64,000 nucleotides of DNA from Hypoxylon rubiginosum. Its lineage: Eukaryota; Ascomycota; Sordariomycetes; Xylariales; Hypoxylaceae. How positions within the stretch are numbered: the stretch's first letter is position 1; every line of letters begins with the position of its first letter. Shown here in pieces: positions 41,338 through 48,282 of this stretch. Under the pieces are notes generated by a model that was not told where the DNA came from, did not search any database, and saw only the letters and a program-made list of their open reading frames with translations. The position numbers were made by a program, and so were the translations under genes. Location of the stretch: contig CADCXA010000067.1 of the NCBI GenBank assembly GCA_902806565.1, positions 372,001 through 436,000 of the forward strand. The letters run 5' to 3'.

Positions 41338-41369
41338 GGGGATACAGCTCAGCCGACCATTGACCCGCT

Positions 41370-41460
41370 TTGGACCTGACCATAGCCCCATTTATTTGTA
41401 TGTGGCGGGGTGCCGACCACTGACCATTGGGATCTGACCTGACCATGGCCCCATGGTCAA
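41370..41460. repeat. TGACCAT-type subterminal motif cluster in the left TIR
   Basis: Five or more copies of (T/C)GACCA(T/C) occur within about 100 bp of the end, and the mirrored cluster is at about 48160-48250. Two copies form the palindrome TGACCATGGCCCCATGGTCA at about 41438-41457. Repeated outer motifs like this are typical for transposase recognition. Confidence 0.7.
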
Positions 41461-41535
41461 TCTTGGCATTTATTAATAGAGTACTCAATAACCCCTCCAT
41501 ATCCAATTAACCACTTTCACTCTAGTGGCTCCATT

Positions 41536-41542
41536 TATATAA
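41536..41542 (+). promoter_or_regulatory. TATA element carried by the inverted repeat
   Basis: TATATAA within the inner end of the left inverted repeat, facing the transposase start at 41916. The same element lies in the right repeat (about 48078-48084), about 200 bp upstream of the companion gene start. Each gene thus appears to be driven inward from its own terminal repeat. Prediction by eye. Confidence 0.45.
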
Positions 41543-41915
41543 GCCAATTACGTAGCTAGGTGAGCATTTATTAGAATATCACCACCACAAATCTATTAGA
41601 ATACCACCACCACATATCACGAAATTTACCTCCTTTTACCTACCTACTTAACAAAACGTTTTGCTTATATCGATCTGCTTGATGAGCACTCATCGACTAC
41701 TTATTAGGCTTTGCGGTGAGTTCACCGATGGCAGGACCAAGTAAGATGTAGTGATGGGTACGATTGACCGCCGACTTGACCGCCGATTTGACCGCCAAAG
41801 CGCAGGAGTTTACTATGGAATAGTTAATGAGTACTCAATAAGCAATCAATTATTAAACCAGCGTGAGTCCTCACATTTACCTATACATCGCGCTCATCAA
41901 TACGAGAATCTAACA

Positions 41916-44900
41916 ATGGCTCAACCCCACCAGATTATTCGACCTAACTATGCTGAAGACATACCAGATGGTAAGCTTCAACTTAGATACTGGCGACGAG
42001 TTGAGGTATACTCATTAATTGTTTATAGATTATCGAGTTGAGGCACCTGCTCTCCCAAAACCATGGACAGATGCCTTACTCGATCTCACGACTCGGGCTG
42101 ATATTGGTCGGCGTGAGTACTCGATGACTAACTCAACAACTATTCGGAATCAAGCAATGCCGACGAATAGTGAGGATATGAACAACCCGATAGGGCACCC
42201 CGATTCCATCGAGCTCTCCTTAAGCACTCCGCGATTAGTGTCAAGTGGTAGACGATTAATTGACGGTACATTGGTGCATCAAAATACTGCCACCTACGTT
42301 CGTCACGTTTATGCAGTTTCAACGCTTCCGGCCTATCCAAGGACTGACCCAGATGGAGTGCTTTATATATGCCCTATTGGAGTACTCAATGAAGCCGTTC
42401 AAAATGCGCCCTGGGAGGACGTAAGTGATCCTGTATAGTGGTTAAGAAGTACTCATTGAGTACTCAGCTAATTTCCGTCTTCTAGATGCAATATTCGACA
42501 TACCAGAAACACCCAGCGAAGGCTGGGACAACCGACCTATTAAACGATGCCGCCGTGATACGTTATACACGTCAATGTAGTGGTATTAAGATCTGTCCAC
42601 ATCTACACCCAAACATTCGCGATCTCCATCACACACGTATCCCCGAAGATGACTCCTTTTGGAGTATGCCTGCGAGGATTAATCGAGCACGCGAGAAGCA
42701 CTCGGCTTTGTTCGAGGCAGTTGCCTTTGCACGGGGAGCACTCAAAGCTTTCGATGTGCCTAAGCCATGTCACAGGACCTTGAAGCCTGAATTCTTTCCT
42801 GGTGACAGGTGGAATGAAATGACAATGCAAGGGTATGTCGAGTGTGTGTTGGGTCACGGGCAAATGGCGGGCGACAATGTAAGTACTCGCAAACTACCTA
42901 TTGAGTACTTATTAACCTCTTCACTAGTATCCTGACGGATCGCCGAGGAAATTCTTGCAATGCGCGAATCATGGGATGGAAGAGTATGCGCACTTTTCTC
43001 GACATGTCCCTGCCCGTTTAATGGAACACTGGACTGTGATTAAGCGCATAGTTGAGCAATGGGACTGGGAGGATATCATCCAAGATAATCCCGAACTTCG
43101 AGAGTTTGCTCGGGATATGGGTGAGTATTGTGGGACAATTGCTGGGACGTCTGGGAGGGGTAAACTGTGCAGTAAGTTTAGGGAGTACTTCATGAGTACT
43201 CTTTAAGGACTCACTAACATCTCGTCAGACACATTTCACACCGTTGATACTCCTCCGCAACTAATACCTCTCAAATGTGATGTGATATTCAAATGGCATA
43301 TCCCATGCGACCGCAAGAAATACCCATGGTTTTTTCTTTCGATCCATGGTGAGCATAAACACCCCCCGCCCACTCCAAATCGTGAACCTAAGAGCTTGGT
43401 ACGGCGGTTTATTCAGTATATTCGCAAGTCGGGCGATCGTGATGGATCCCTCGGTAGGTCACGAAGCTCTAAACAACTACTTTTTGAGTACATATTAATT
43501 GTATTAGGGACTTTTCTCAGGAGCGAGGCGTGTCAGGAGTTCCTGAGAGAGTTTAATAGTCAAACGTTCGCCGAGATTCACCCCTATTTTACTAACGATG
43601 ATGCCTTACGTCGTATCATTCGCCAGGAACGGGCTATACATTATCCTCTAGGTTCTTCGCGCCTCGCCTTGCGGTATGAATGGGAATTGAATCACAAGGA
43701 CAGCGAAAACAAGGTAAGTACTCGATGAACTCTCGGTTAGTACTCTATTGCTAAGTTGATTATTTGCTCCGCAGTATATTCAATTCTTCCACGATGATAA
43801 CACGAATTTCATGGTTATTTTGTTCTATGTCGAGCAACTTTTACTCTTGTTTCAGACTCCAGATATCTCACTCCAAGTAGATATGAATTTCAAGCACCTC
43901 ATAGGTGGCCAGTTCGAGATAATTTGGGCTTTTTACGATGAAGTATCGCGAAGATGTGAGTTCCCCATTTGCCCCTCCACGAGTAGTCTCTGAGTACTCA
44001 ATGAGTACTTATCAAAGATTAACCGTTCTATAGCCGAGGTAACACTCCGAGTAATCACAAACTCGCAGAGCCCTGATATGTACTTCTTCATGTTTCAGAA
44101 TGTCTTTTCAACTGTTCACTCTGCCACTGGTAGAGAGATTCAATTAAAGCATCTCCACGGAACTGGTATTCTCGGGTTTACGTTCGATATGGAATGGGGC
44201 ATTTTTCAAGGTCAGTTGCGACTAGCTACTCTATAAGTACTCATTGAGTACTTAATAAGTACTAATTGTATATAGCATGGGGACACTTCGTATCGCAGCA
44301 TCTGGACCCAGAACGCCGTGGATGGCTCTATCATCACAAACGCTCCGTTCGTTTCTGCAGAGTTCATTACGAGAGAAATGTGAGAAAGCTGCTAGGGGAG
44401 TATACGCCGAGATTCCAGAATTCCATATACGATATCCTCATCCACTTACCTGAAGCCAAGACGGAGTCTGATTATCACGGTACTTGCGAAAAGATAATTT
44501 GTGAGTACTCATAGAGTTCTTAATAAGTACTAAGCATACACTAATACTACTTCAGCTGAGGACACATTAACCAGTAACTACCCTGGGATAATCCCCTGGG
44601 TTAAACATAAGAGAATTCCTGAAATCGCATCAGGGCTCGCGAGGTGTTGTTCCGATATCGACGAAGCCGACTGGCATGCGATGTCTAGAAGTACGAACGC
44701 GGTAGAATCGCTCCATCATGCTAGTTATCATGCTAGTGGCAGGTATAAGCCGGTATTTGTAGTTGTTCAGGTTAACGCCGAATATGATGCTCGTCGTATC
44801 CAACAAGCCGATATATATCAGCGGTACGGCATTCGGTACGGTCAAAGGAATCATTCATTGGATACACGATGGAGCAATGCCATTAAAGCGCAAAGTAAGT

Positions 44901-45382
44901 GCCCCTAATTTTGATGGAATACTCCATAAGTATTGAATAAGTACTTGCAGAGTACTAATTTGCAGTACAGTGAAAAGAACTACCCGTCAGCGACAATCAA
45001 GTGACGAACGAAAAGCCAGGAAGCAAATAATTAGATCCTCGCCGCTTTCCGATGCCTCTGGGAGTACTCAACGATCCCTTAGTGTCCCGAGGACGCCCAC
45101 TCCACGTCGAACATTGAGTCCTGTCCATAGCACGCCTGGGTCCGGGCGTAGAGGAGGTCGAAGTCGCAGGTAAGTTATTATGAGTACTTAATGAGTACTC
45201 GAAGAGTATATATCGAGCACTTACTGATACCTCTCAGTTCCATGGCAAGAGACGCGACAAGCAATGCCTATGATGAAGTCCTTGCTCGTCAAGAGCGGGA
45301 GCTTGAGCTTGAGGAGAGGAGACTGCGGCTGGATCAGGCTAGGTATGATCTTGAACAGAGACGGAGGGCGGAGGGTATTTGA
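41916..45382 (+). CDS. MULE-superfamily transposase, 13 exons
   Basis: Exons: 41916-41970, 42029-42112, 42155-42420, 42486-42878, 42928-43171, 43229-43453, 43508-43713, 43775-43955, 44034-44210, 44276-44500, 44556-44894, 44971-45169, 45238-45382; all joins keep frame, 912 aa. Catalytic pattern: D527 in QVDMNFKHLIGG, D603 in GFTFDMEWGIF, the Mutator CxxH in FCRVHYERNV (C638, H641), and E736 in STNAVESLHHASYHASGRYK. Upstream lies a DNA-binding-like region with CSGIKICPHLHPNIRDLHH and a conserved-looking HGEHKHPPPTPNREPK. The C-terminus is basic Ser/Pro-rich followed by a short coiled coil (ARQERELELEERRLRLDQ). It cuts and joins DNA at the element ends. Intron 2 has two possible acceptors; the 42-nt choice keeps frame. 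All introns but the first hold AGTACT or a close variant. No lesions were seen. Confidence 0.87.
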
Positions 45383-45866
45383 CTATTTTTTGTTATAGAA
45401 TACTCATTAACTACTCATAGAGTACTCTATGAGTACTTAACGAGTATTTAGTTATAATGTATTGGATGCTTTATTCCGTGAACTTCCATTTTGCAAATAG
45501 GCATAGAAGTAATTAACTATATATGTTGAATTTGGAATTTTATTGCAATCCCTTTTATTGCTTAATTATTATGGTAATTCAATTGTAAATGCGTCAGCAA
45601 AGATAAATGAGAGTGCTTCATATGGAAACTGGTTTTATATTCCATGAGTACTCATCAAGTACTCATCAAGTACTCGAAAGGTATTGGTCAAATTAGACTA
45701 TCATAGCAATGGGTATCGTTGAACGCGTTAAAACTGCCCTACTACCTGGATATCGTCCGTTTACTCGTAATGAAAAGAACGCCACATAAACACTTTTAAG
45801 TACTTATTGAATACTCCATGATTAGCACATGGAGCACTCAAAACCCACTCTCCCTATTCTAGCCAC
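45383..45866. other. Intergenic spacer between the two convergent transposon genes
   Basis: 484 bp of AT-rich DNA holding both 3' ends. Five successive 11-bp-phased AGTACT-like words start at 45399, 45410, 45421, 45432 and 45443, and a perfect triple starts at 45647, 45658 and 45669. No gene. Confidence 0.8.
45399..45448. repeat. Five 11-bp-phased AGTACT-type units
   Basis: AATACT, ACTACT, AGTACT, AGTACT and AGTATT start at 45399, 45410, 45421, 45432 and 45443, each exactly 11 bp from the last. The intervening bases are AT-rich (CATTA, CATAG, CTATG, TAACG). Confidence 0.85.
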
Positions 45867-47878
45867 TTATACGTTATCCTGAAGCTGTCGCGCGGCTGCA
45901 TCGTCATCGTTAGCTCCCTCCGGCGTCGTGAAACACTCGGTGGTTTCCCGTGAAGCATTTGATAAGGACTCTTCAAGTTCTCTCTTAGTAGCAGAACGAG
46001 TTTTCCTCGGCTCAGTGGACAACGTTTTTTTCTCTACACGTCTTATTTTCATTGGGCGCGTATCGGGCTCCTGTTGTTTTTCTCCATTTAACTCGTTATT
46101 CTCGTGAGTCTCGCGATTCTCCTGCTCGTTTAGGCGCTCCTGCTCTTGTTGTAAGCGCTCTTGTTCTTGCTGTTGCCGCAGGCGCTCCTGCTCTTCTTGT
46201 TGTAAGCGCTCCTGCTCTTCTTGTTGTAAGCGCTCCTGCTCTTCTCGTTGCAGGCGTTCGTTCTCTTCTCGTTGCAGGCGTTCGTTCTCTTCTCGTTGCA
46301 GGCGTTCGTGCTCTTCTCGCTGCAGACGTTCTTGATCTTCTTGTTGCAGGCGAGTTTGTTCCTCTCGCTGCAGGCGTTCCTGCTCTTGCTGCTGCTGCTG
46401 CAGGCGCTCTTGTTCCTGCTGCTCCTGCTGCAGCAGATACTCTCGTTCTTGCTGCAGCAGGCGTTCCTGCTCCTGCTGCTGCTGCAGGCGCTCTTGTTCC
46501 TGCTGCTGGAACTCTCGTTCCTGCTGCAGCAGGGGATCATCCTCAAATAGGAACTCTTGATTTACCTCATCTTGAAGCTCAGGATGGGATATCATCTCTT
46601 GGAAGGATTGCAGCTGCATCATTCCATGACGTTCAGTCTCTGCTTCCGTAGCTTGCTGACGTTCCGCGGCCTCGATATCCGCAATAGAGTCAAAAATCCG
46701 GGCAGAACCATCAGACAGCAGGACAGTCTTGCTGCCAGCCCGTTGGTGACCCTGTTGAGTACTCATTGAGACACTCATTGAGGGCTCTCTTGGAAGAGTT
46801 GGCTGGTGCTCGGGTATAGATTTACTCTCCGCATCCTTGCTATCGATGGTATGGGCATGATTTGAATCGTCGTCGCTTACGTCGGTTTCATCGGGGCGGG
46901 CACGTCTCTCTCGCCTCGTCTCTAAGAACTGCATCCAAAGATGGCAGTCCGGTTTGCGTACCTCTGGACAAGCTAAACACCAGTTAGTTATTCATTGAGT
47001 ACTTATCGAGTGATCACTTACAACTCCTTCCGGCCTCGATACAGCCCTCGCAGGCCTTTTTCTTTTGTCCCGCCAGAAGCTTCATAGATTTCAGGTTAGG
47101 CTATAATAGATTAGCTCAATTTGTACTCGAAAAGTCCTTGATATATCTTACATGAGCTGCGCAGTTTTTGCGAGCCTTCGTGAAAGGAACTGACTTGAGA
47201 TCCTTCTGCTTTGGGGCTTGGAGAGGCCGCGTATCAGGCCGGAATGGTGTCTTTCCCACCGAACTAGCCGCGGTGTTCGGGTTGAACTCGTCGATGTCCT
47301 TCTTCACCGAGTCCCAGTATGCTATATTGGTTCATTAGCTGATACGAGTTCTATACTGCTCGATGAGTACTTACTAATTAATACAGCATGATCATGCAGT
47401 GTCAATCCGCCATTGCGATTCTTCGCCAGTCGAATCTCCACATCATTCCCGTCGACGATGACACGATGTGACTCAACATGGCGCTTAAGGTTACTCCAAT
47501 GTAATATCTTGTCCTGTTCAAAGTTAATGAGCACTTATTGAGTACCCCATAAGTGTTCATATATGACTCACCGTGCGATAGCATAACTGAATATCAGCGT
47601 CGGTGTTGTGATTCATGTTGAATCGACAGAAGCATTCACCATTAGGAATAACGACTTGATCCGCACCCTGATATATAATGAGTACTCATCGAGTTATCAA
47701 AAAGAAATATAGAACTTACGATCATATCGAATGGCGATACATTATCTGGTCGTGTTTCGTGAGCCTGATACCACTTGTATCCTTCCTATAAAACATAATG
47801 AGTACTCATATAGTACTTATGAAATGAATAAAAACTTACAGATTTGTGTTTGTAGGATGTAGAAGGTAATGGTGCCAT
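45867..47878 (-). CDS. Transposon companion protein with Cys knuckle and Q/E/R coiled coil
   Basis: Exons on the - strand: 47878-47840, 47785-47720, 47667-47572, 47513-47375, 47321-47152, 47100-47022 and 46972-45867, joining in frame to 564 aa. The N-terminal 200 residues are mixed and include HWSNLKRHVESHRVIVDG and AYWDSVKKDIDEFNPN. A Cys cluster follows (ACEGCIEAGRSSCPEVRKPDC, quoted in part: CxxC...C...C), of the kind seen in zinc-knuckle or zinc-cluster DNA-binding proteins. From about 350 to 490 is a long coiled coil built of (Q/E)ERLQ(Q/R)EE repeats. The C-terminus is basic (KIRRVEKKTLS) with a Thr-rich end. I do not recognise a family. As the only other gene of an autonomous-looking element, it may be an accessory DNA-binding or regulatory partner of the transposase. 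Confidence 0.75.
46120..46530. repeat. Coding CAG/CTG-rich repeat array in the companion gene
   Basis: Tandem 24-30-bp units built from CTCTTGTTG and CGCTCCTGC (GAGCGCTTGCAACAGGAA-type on the coding strand), encoding QERLQ(Q/R)E(E/Q) heptad-like repeats, with runs of CTG/CAG near 46390-46500. A likely site of length change between copies. Confidence 0.85.
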
Positions 47879-48069
47879 ATTAGTGAATAGGGCTGTGTAA
47901 CTTTAGTAATTACCCAATAGAATAAATTTTATATTAAATGCTCAATGAGTACTTATTGAGTAGTTAGTCAAATTATGGTAAAAGTATGTGTAAAGGAAAG
48001 TTTGGTATCATTTTAATTTGGGCATAGCAATTACTTTTATTGACTATTGGTCTATGCTTTTCTTGTGTA

Positions 48070-48282
48070 TAATTGGCTTATATAAATGGAGCCACTAGAG
48101 TGAAAGTGGTTAATAGGATATGGAGGGGTTATTGAGTACTCTATTAATAAATGCCAAGACTGACCATGGGGCCATGGTCAGGTCAGATCCCAATGGTCAG
48201 TGGTCGGCACCCCGCCACATACAAATAAGCGGGTCAATGGTCAGGTCCAAAGCGGGTCAATGGTCGGCTGAGCTGTATCCCC
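48070..48282 (-). repeat. Right terminal inverted repeat (213 bp)
   Basis: Reverse complement of 41338-41550 with about six mismatches, ending ...GCTGTATCCCC at 48282. Contains the mirrored TGACCAT cluster and TATATAA. Confidence 0.92.

Follow-up and report, generated by a model that had tools for sequence, protein, structure and literature searches.

Phased AGTACT palindromes in the non-coding DNA of a Hypoxylon rubiginosum transposon as candidate protein-binding arrays

A DNA transposon of 6,945 bp lies in a 64,000-nucleotide stretch of the Hypoxylon rubiginosum assembly GCA_902806565.1 (contig CADCXA010000067.1, positions 372,001 to 436,000, forward strand). This stretch is referred to below as the window, and positions are those of the window unless an assembly sequence is named. 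Between the transposon's long inverted repeats lie a transposase-like gene and, convergent with it, a companion gene, and the introns, spacer and ends carry ladders of the palindrome AGTACT with an 11-bp step. A preliminary description of the locus, made from the sequence alone, had drawn attention to these palindromes, and their phased occurrence in the element is confirmed. The main parts of the element are listed below.

41338..48282, no strand: whole transposon, 6,945 bp, one of seven full copies, with an 8-bp target duplication CTTCGGTT
41338..41550, + strand: left terminal inverted repeat, 213 bp, with one AGTACT at 41480
41916..45382, + strand: transposase-like gene, predicted 926 amino acids, 11 introns, predicted splice sites
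45867..47878, - strand: companion gene, convergent, predicted 564 amino acids, 6 introns, with Cys/His clusters followed by a long Glu/Gln-rich repeat
48070..48282, - strand: right terminal inverted repeat, 213 bp, with one AGTACT at 48135

The splice sites of both gene models are predictions. The intron at 43172-43228 was preferred over two longer options on the strength of an alignment of the preceding exon with P0003, a protein of Hypoxylon sp. FL0890 that is 52% identical to the transposase-like protein and is annotated as hypothetical. The left and right inverted repeats are identical at 207 of 213 positions, and target duplications of 8-9 bp flank all seven full copies.

Number, spacing and position of the AGTACT palindromes

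AGTACT occurs at 38 exact sites in the element (41480-48135), close to the approximately 40 that had been counted by eye, compared to 8 sites in the other 57,055 bp of the window (0.14/kb, measured over all of the window outside the element). Sixteen pairs of exact sites lie no more than 30 bp apart, with 11 pairs at 11 bp, 5 at 22 bp and none at any other distance. When the same numbers of sites were placed at random in the same non-coding stretches, 16 in-register pairs were never reached in 20,000 placements (mean 0.87, maximum 6). With one mismatch allowed, 44 of the 65 distances of up to 60 bp in the non-coding parts were multiples of 11 (26 at 11, 13 at 22, 4 at 33 and 1 at 44 bp), compared to 5.9 expected, and 21 were not. 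The autocorrelation peak at 11 bp, on which the preliminary description had staked the phasing, is present. The five ladders that it named and the degenerate ladder at 45399-45443 were found at their reported positions, together with further pairs at 11 bp (43184/43195, 44940/44951 and 45183/45194) and at 22 bp (42882/42904, 43717/43739 and 44504/44526).

The proposed consensus, AGTACTYAWTR, occurs 25 times in the window compared to 0.12 expected from shuffles. Each unit combines two palindromes, roughly as in TRAGTACTYAWTR. Both the core, AGT/ACT, and the spacer, YAWTR, are palindromic, which gives a dyad every 5.5 bp and an array without direction. The flanks of the exact sites are symmetrical (T-R-AGTACT-Y-A), as expected for binding by a dimer, and a partner core can be seen 11 bp to either side. 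With a helical turn of 10.5 bp, each 11-bp step amounts arithmetically to a rotation of ~17 degrees per site, so that a short ladder remains on nearly one face of the helix.

Exact sites are densest in the transposase introns (19 in 686 bp, 27.7/kb), followed by the companion introns (5 in 317 bp, 15.8/kb; 24 in 1,003 bp for the introns of both genes) and by the spacer and ends (10 in 1,466 bp, 6.8/kb). The exons hold 4 in 4,476 bp (0.6-1.1/kb), a mild enrichment over the 0.63 expected (P = 0.004). The earlier placement of almost all sites in introns, in the spacer and beside the ends was therefore largely right but is not absolute. An exact unit is present in 13 of the 17 predicted introns, and a unit with at most one mismatch in 16. 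The units fall into 24 clusters separated by 289 bp on average, and the longest gap, of 959 bp, spans most of the companion's last exon. The arrays, pairs and exonic units, none of which has a strand, are as follows.

42116..42121: exonic exact unit; the other three exonic units are at 42381, 45063 and 46758
42448..42464: array of 2 exact units, intron
42882..42909: two exact units 22 bp apart, intron
43184..43211: array of 2 exact units and 1 one-mismatch unit, intron
43717..43744: two exact units 22 bp apart, intron
43982..44009: array of 2 exact units and 1 one-mismatch unit, intron
44236..44263: array of 3 exact units, intron
44504..44531: array of 2 exact units and 1 one-mismatch unit, intron
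44918..44956: array of 2 exact and 2 one-mismatch units, intron
45183..45221: array of 2 exact units and 1 one-mismatch unit in register, intron
45399..45448: array of 5 units, 2 of them exact, spacer 3' of the transposase gene
45647..45674: array of 3 exact units, spacer
47801..47817: array of 2 exact units, first companion intron

Full copies, short relatives and mutated copies in the assembly

The 48.3-Mb assembly contains seven full copies, which are the window element and those on C3, C6, C31, C37, C55 and C56 (assembly sequence labels). C3 and C6 were compared in overlapping pieces over nearly the whole length, and the other four over 1.66 kb from each end. In all pieces compared the full copies were identical apart from the length of the companion repeat, and no variation in unit number was seen among them. 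The length difference, of 48 bp (16 codons), lies in the Glu/Gln repeat at 46096-46540.

The search of the genome for the array that the preliminary description had proposed detected in-register triplets in the seven full copies and in short relatives. The assembly has 21 such triplets, and all 21 belong to this transposon family or to a fragment of it: the seven full copies contain 14, three non-autonomous elements 5 and a fragment on C19 the other 2. Two units in register occur 91 times, compared to 2 for the reversed pattern. The full copies account for 77 of these doublets at 11 each (fully listed for C3, C6 and C31, counted for the window, partly listed for C37 and inferred for C55 and C56), and the non-autonomous elements and the fragment for 11. 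C32 and C34 have one doublet each, with no array around it, and one further doublet was not among the matches listed. When the register was dropped, AGTACT-N0-30-AGTACT was found 193 times and its reversed pattern 162 times, which places the excess in the register and not in loose clustering. Among the matches listed, 22 AGTACT pairs are outside the family, with none at 11-bp spacing, one at 22 and one at 33. The fragment, C19:150741-151240, is a 500-bp piece of a non-autonomous element (100% identical) that starts beside an array, has no end repeats and is embedded in other DNA.

Six elements of 967-1,023 bp have ends that match those of the autonomous element. Three of them (C37:1120470, C37:191840 and C21:461568) are free of repeat-induced point mutation (RIP) and match the autonomous element over 116-123 bp per end at 97-99%, and their remaining BLAST matches at E 0.001 are to the array or to the inner edge of the end repeat. 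No internal open reading frame (ORF) of 50 amino acids was found in the two of these three that were examined, the listed ORFs overlapping ends or flanks. Both C37 elements have two 11-bp ladders, of 3 and 6 units (at most one mismatch), and the C21 element has ladders of 3 and 6 units, or 7 if one degenerate unit is counted. C21 and C37:1120470 are set apart by 40 substitutions, an additional 11-bp unit, a change of 36 bp (3 x 12) in a second repeat and a deletion of 9 bp. This second repeat is a 12-bp tandem repeat of the AAGGGTATTGCG type in the non-autonomous interiors, with a three-unit difference between C37 and C21. The three RIP-mutated short elements, read with G/A and C/T pooled, still have runs of 4, 3 and 4 successive steps of 11 bp. 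Since the arrays are kept in the absence of the element's genes, of a matching intron and of any other shared interior, they appear to be DNA-level cis elements of the family, and the comparison indicates that they act as DNA and not through introns. The short elements may have descended from some unseen autonomous relative that had its own arrays, which would leave this DNA-level conclusion unchanged. If the arrays and the companion act as a unit, elements that have just ends and arrays in common would serve as natural minimal substrates for learning what is needed in cis.

Two full-size copies, C8 (453310-460207) and C18, stand beside the seven intact copies with ~88-89% of their G:C pairs changed to A:T. 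C8 has 2,739 G>A/C>T changes, 6 transversions and 5 reverse transitions, and C18 has 2,755 G>A/C>T changes and 8 transversions. These RIP-like changes are mostly at CpA (95-97%), and the outer 200 bp were hit much less. C8 (63-78% identity) and C18 (67-73%) had been tried as diverged copies for a conservation test, but their divergence proved to be RIP-like mutation, so that their ancestral arrays were the same and they give no independent test of conservation. Stretches of C25 and C31 matched the window element only partially in the same comparison. C8, C18 and the seven intact copies derive from one recent sequence. The presence of young, intact copies next to others of that sequence that RIP has destroyed would make an arms race datable. 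C8 and C18 are also shorter by a further 48 bp in the companion's Glu/Gln repeat.

The two encoded proteins

The companion has relatives in Daldinia sp. FL1419 (P0001, 56%) and Rostrohypoxylon terebratum (P0002, 51%), both annotated as hypothetical proteins. The residues C49, C64, H79, H83 and C187, C190, C198, C206 (P0001 numbering) are kept in these proteins of two other fungi. By eye, the window companion has matching residues at equal spacing in the second cluster and at the end of the first. Read in this way, the Cys/His clusters are putative zinc-binding DNA-contact domains, and the Glu/Gln-rich, coiled-coil-like tail suggests self-association. Comparison of the companion with solved structures gave a single match (E 1.9), which was taken as chance, as were two Pfam matches of P0002 under the cut-off (E 0.016 and 5.5).

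Pfam detected no Mutator-like element (MULE) transposase domain in the transposase-like protein, and PF10551 was found at six places in the assembly and at none in this element. Comparison by hhalign of a two-row transposase alignment with one MULE of the same genome gave a probability of 0.2%, a test limited by the shallow alignment, and a protein search with the two-row alignment returned no match at E 10 among 4,012 candidates. The structure model, consulted for the DDE catalytic triad in an RNase H-like fold that a Mutator transposase would have, is weak (mean predicted local distance difference test score, pLDDT, 43.8); Foldseek returned 837 matches at E 10 and none at E 0.001. Argonaute, EndoV and Hermes transposase were among the Foldseek matches, at E 0.006-0.3, and were not counted.

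The element resembles Mutator in its target duplications, which fall within the published 8-11 bp, and in its second ORF, which is possible in that group (the superfamily includes the fungal Hop and Mutyl with MutB; PMC6446971). The 213-bp inverted repeats are a further likeness, although some MULEs lack long repeats. In contrast, a MULE domain was not detected by Pfam or by profile comparison. Putative Mutator membership, which would bring the element nearer to VANDAL, is thus supported by the ends and duplications and unsupported by the profile tests.

Possible function of the arrays

In Arabidopsis, VANC21 binds a short motif that is arrayed in the introns, intergenic and terminal parts of VANDAL21, and it induces a loss of methylation through the element (PMC5735166). 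VANC6, of VANDAL6, has different motifs, units are gained and lost in the arrays, and AT9TSD1, an unrelated transposable element with the VANC6 motif, is also acted on by VANC6 (PMC5735166 and PMC10398659). The earlier statement that known family features do not predict arrays inside introns was thus too strong, and the VANDAL precedent lowers the novelty of the intron arrays. Another kingdom and the unusual array geometry are still new. A literature search, mostly of open papers, found no description of this element or of AGTACT arrays in a transposon, which does not prove that there is none.

The present element is like VANDAL in that its arrays lie in intronic, intergenic and terminal non-coding DNA and in that an extra element-encoded protein with a variable repeat region accompanies the transposase. 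The motif is dense in the element, with in-register triplets in the family and single units elsewhere too, and the number of units varies, here by one 11-bp unit between the C21 and C37 non-autonomous elements. Unrelated elements can also carry the motif in the VANDAL case. Fungal DNA transposons with TET/JBP dioxygenases share with the present element an extra gene that could counter silencing; they differ (PMC12730594) in that neither protein here has a dioxygenase match in Pfam and the recognisable feature here is the cis array.

By analogy with VANC, we read the ladders as cis-acting binding arrays that may serve anti-silencing via an element-encoded protein in a fungal DNA transposon that is young and was recently amplified, and we give this reading a probability of about 0.5. 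Its parts differ in strength. The arrays are likely to be bound by a protein, and this protein is likely, by a slightly smaller margin, to be encoded by the element. The companion is somewhat favoured over the transposase as the binder, and anti-silencing as the effect is a tentative proposal. The cooperative array-binding protein on one DNA face that had been suggested at the outset fits the phasing and the non-coding location, and the protein itself we infer.

In the proposed mechanism, the companion, with its Cys/His clusters and Glu/Gln-rich tail, would bind each palindrome as a dimer, and adjacent palindromes would be occupied side by side on nearly one helix face. Since a cluster recurs every ~290 bp, the protein could cover the element while hardly intruding into its coding sequence. 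Sequence-specific anti-silencing would then keep the element open for expression and transposition, and array-bearing non-autonomous relatives would likewise be kept open. It is a more speculative and rather unlikely proposition that a fungal lineage independently evolved VANC-like anti-silencing in which the companion zinc protein opens the element and its relatives in trans. This would allow bursts between one sexual cycle and the next in a host in which RIP alters about nine in ten G:C pairs of duplicates. If the arrays and the companion act as a unit, sequence-specific anti-silencing would have arisen outside plants, with another protein and another array geometry, and would become testable in a kingdom with easy genetics.

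Several results weigh against the main reading of the ladders. The motif here is palindromic and in an exact 11-bp register, whereas VANC motifs are asymmetric and in one orientation. No VANC homology was found in the companion, to which Pfam gave no family at E 1, including the DUF1985/DUF287 of VANC, and as its structure model (mean pLDDT 36) is useless, the zinc-binding reading was made by eye. Single AGTACTYAWTR units occur 156 times in the assembly compared to 68 same-strand occurrences of the reversed pattern, and some are outside the family. Neighbouring palindromes can also pair in RNA, three of six tested introns folding better than shuffles (z < -2). Finally, the arrays in the two RIP-mutated copies were mutated at 165/181 and 167/181 positions, like the rest of the element (2,487/2,717 and 2,484/2,716), so they did not protect those copies. 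The host, too, differs in being a fungus. The structural likenesses, together with the two tested differences in the palindromic units and in the companion's missing Pfam match, suggest that the element works like VANC, probably by convergence, and not as a member of VANDAL/VANC.

Other DNA transposons carry subterminal arrays of transposase-binding repeats, and the present ladders are similar in having multiple short binding-site-like units. The arrays could bind the transposase itself, pairing the ends or loading transposase with no role in silencing, and this is an unlikely but serious alternative. It would account for the single unit in each 213-bp end and for the retention of ladders by non-autonomous elements, which need movement in trans. 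However, the units here run through introns and spacer too, most are far from the ends and in nearly all introns, and the ends have repeated words of their own. Thirteen of the element's 23 TGACC/GGTCA words lie in the ends and are a candidate separate transposase site. Two end repeats stand back to back at C66:841225-841448 (224 bp) without an interior; this array-less pair lacks a target duplication, so it is no proof of movement without an array.

A neutral minisatellite spread by slippage and gene conversion would explain the 11-bp change in unit number between sister elements, as well as the length variation of the separate 12-bp repeat in the same elements. This is improbable, as it would need many independent origins for ~24 separate, mostly non-coding clusters and for the unit in different interiors, and no in-register triplets are found elsewhere in the assembly.

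The preliminary description had also considered that the arrays mark RNA or bind a host factor. Action in RNA, with palindrome hairpins shaping the splicing or expression of both genes, would suit the presence of units in nearly every predicted intron, the folding of three of the six tested introns and the overlap of the motif with the 5' splice site in four introns (GTAAGTACTC or GTGAGTACTC). It is quite improbable, however, because ladders are found in the spacer and ends as well as in non-autonomous elements that have different interiors and lack these genes' introns. The other three introns showed no notable folding, and hairpins need no exact 11-bp DNA register. Use of the arrays by a host DNA-binding protein, for example in transcription or nucleosome placement, is very improbable: single units do occur elsewhere in the genome, but in-register triplets are found in this family only, and none of the listed non-family pairs has the 11-bp spacing. 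Least plausible is an interaction of the register with RIP homology recognition, for example as a decoy; the host has strong RIP-like mutation and the period strikingly coincides with the 11-12-bp intervals at which triplets are read in Neurospora, but homologies of 6 bp at 11-15-bp periods did little or nothing in the tested construct (both from PMC4858203), the array zones were mutated as the rest, and a transposon gains nothing by attracting RIP.

Two minor observations concern the genes. A 130-amino-acid ORF at C50:151890-152282, not RIP-mutated and with no AGTACT-type array seen, is similar to the first Cys/His cluster of the companion (44% identity over 87 columns) and possibly belongs to a host gene or to another element. 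The leader of the transposase gene (41764-41800) contains three 12-bp repeats of the TTGACCGCC type, which have the TGACC word in common with the end repeats.

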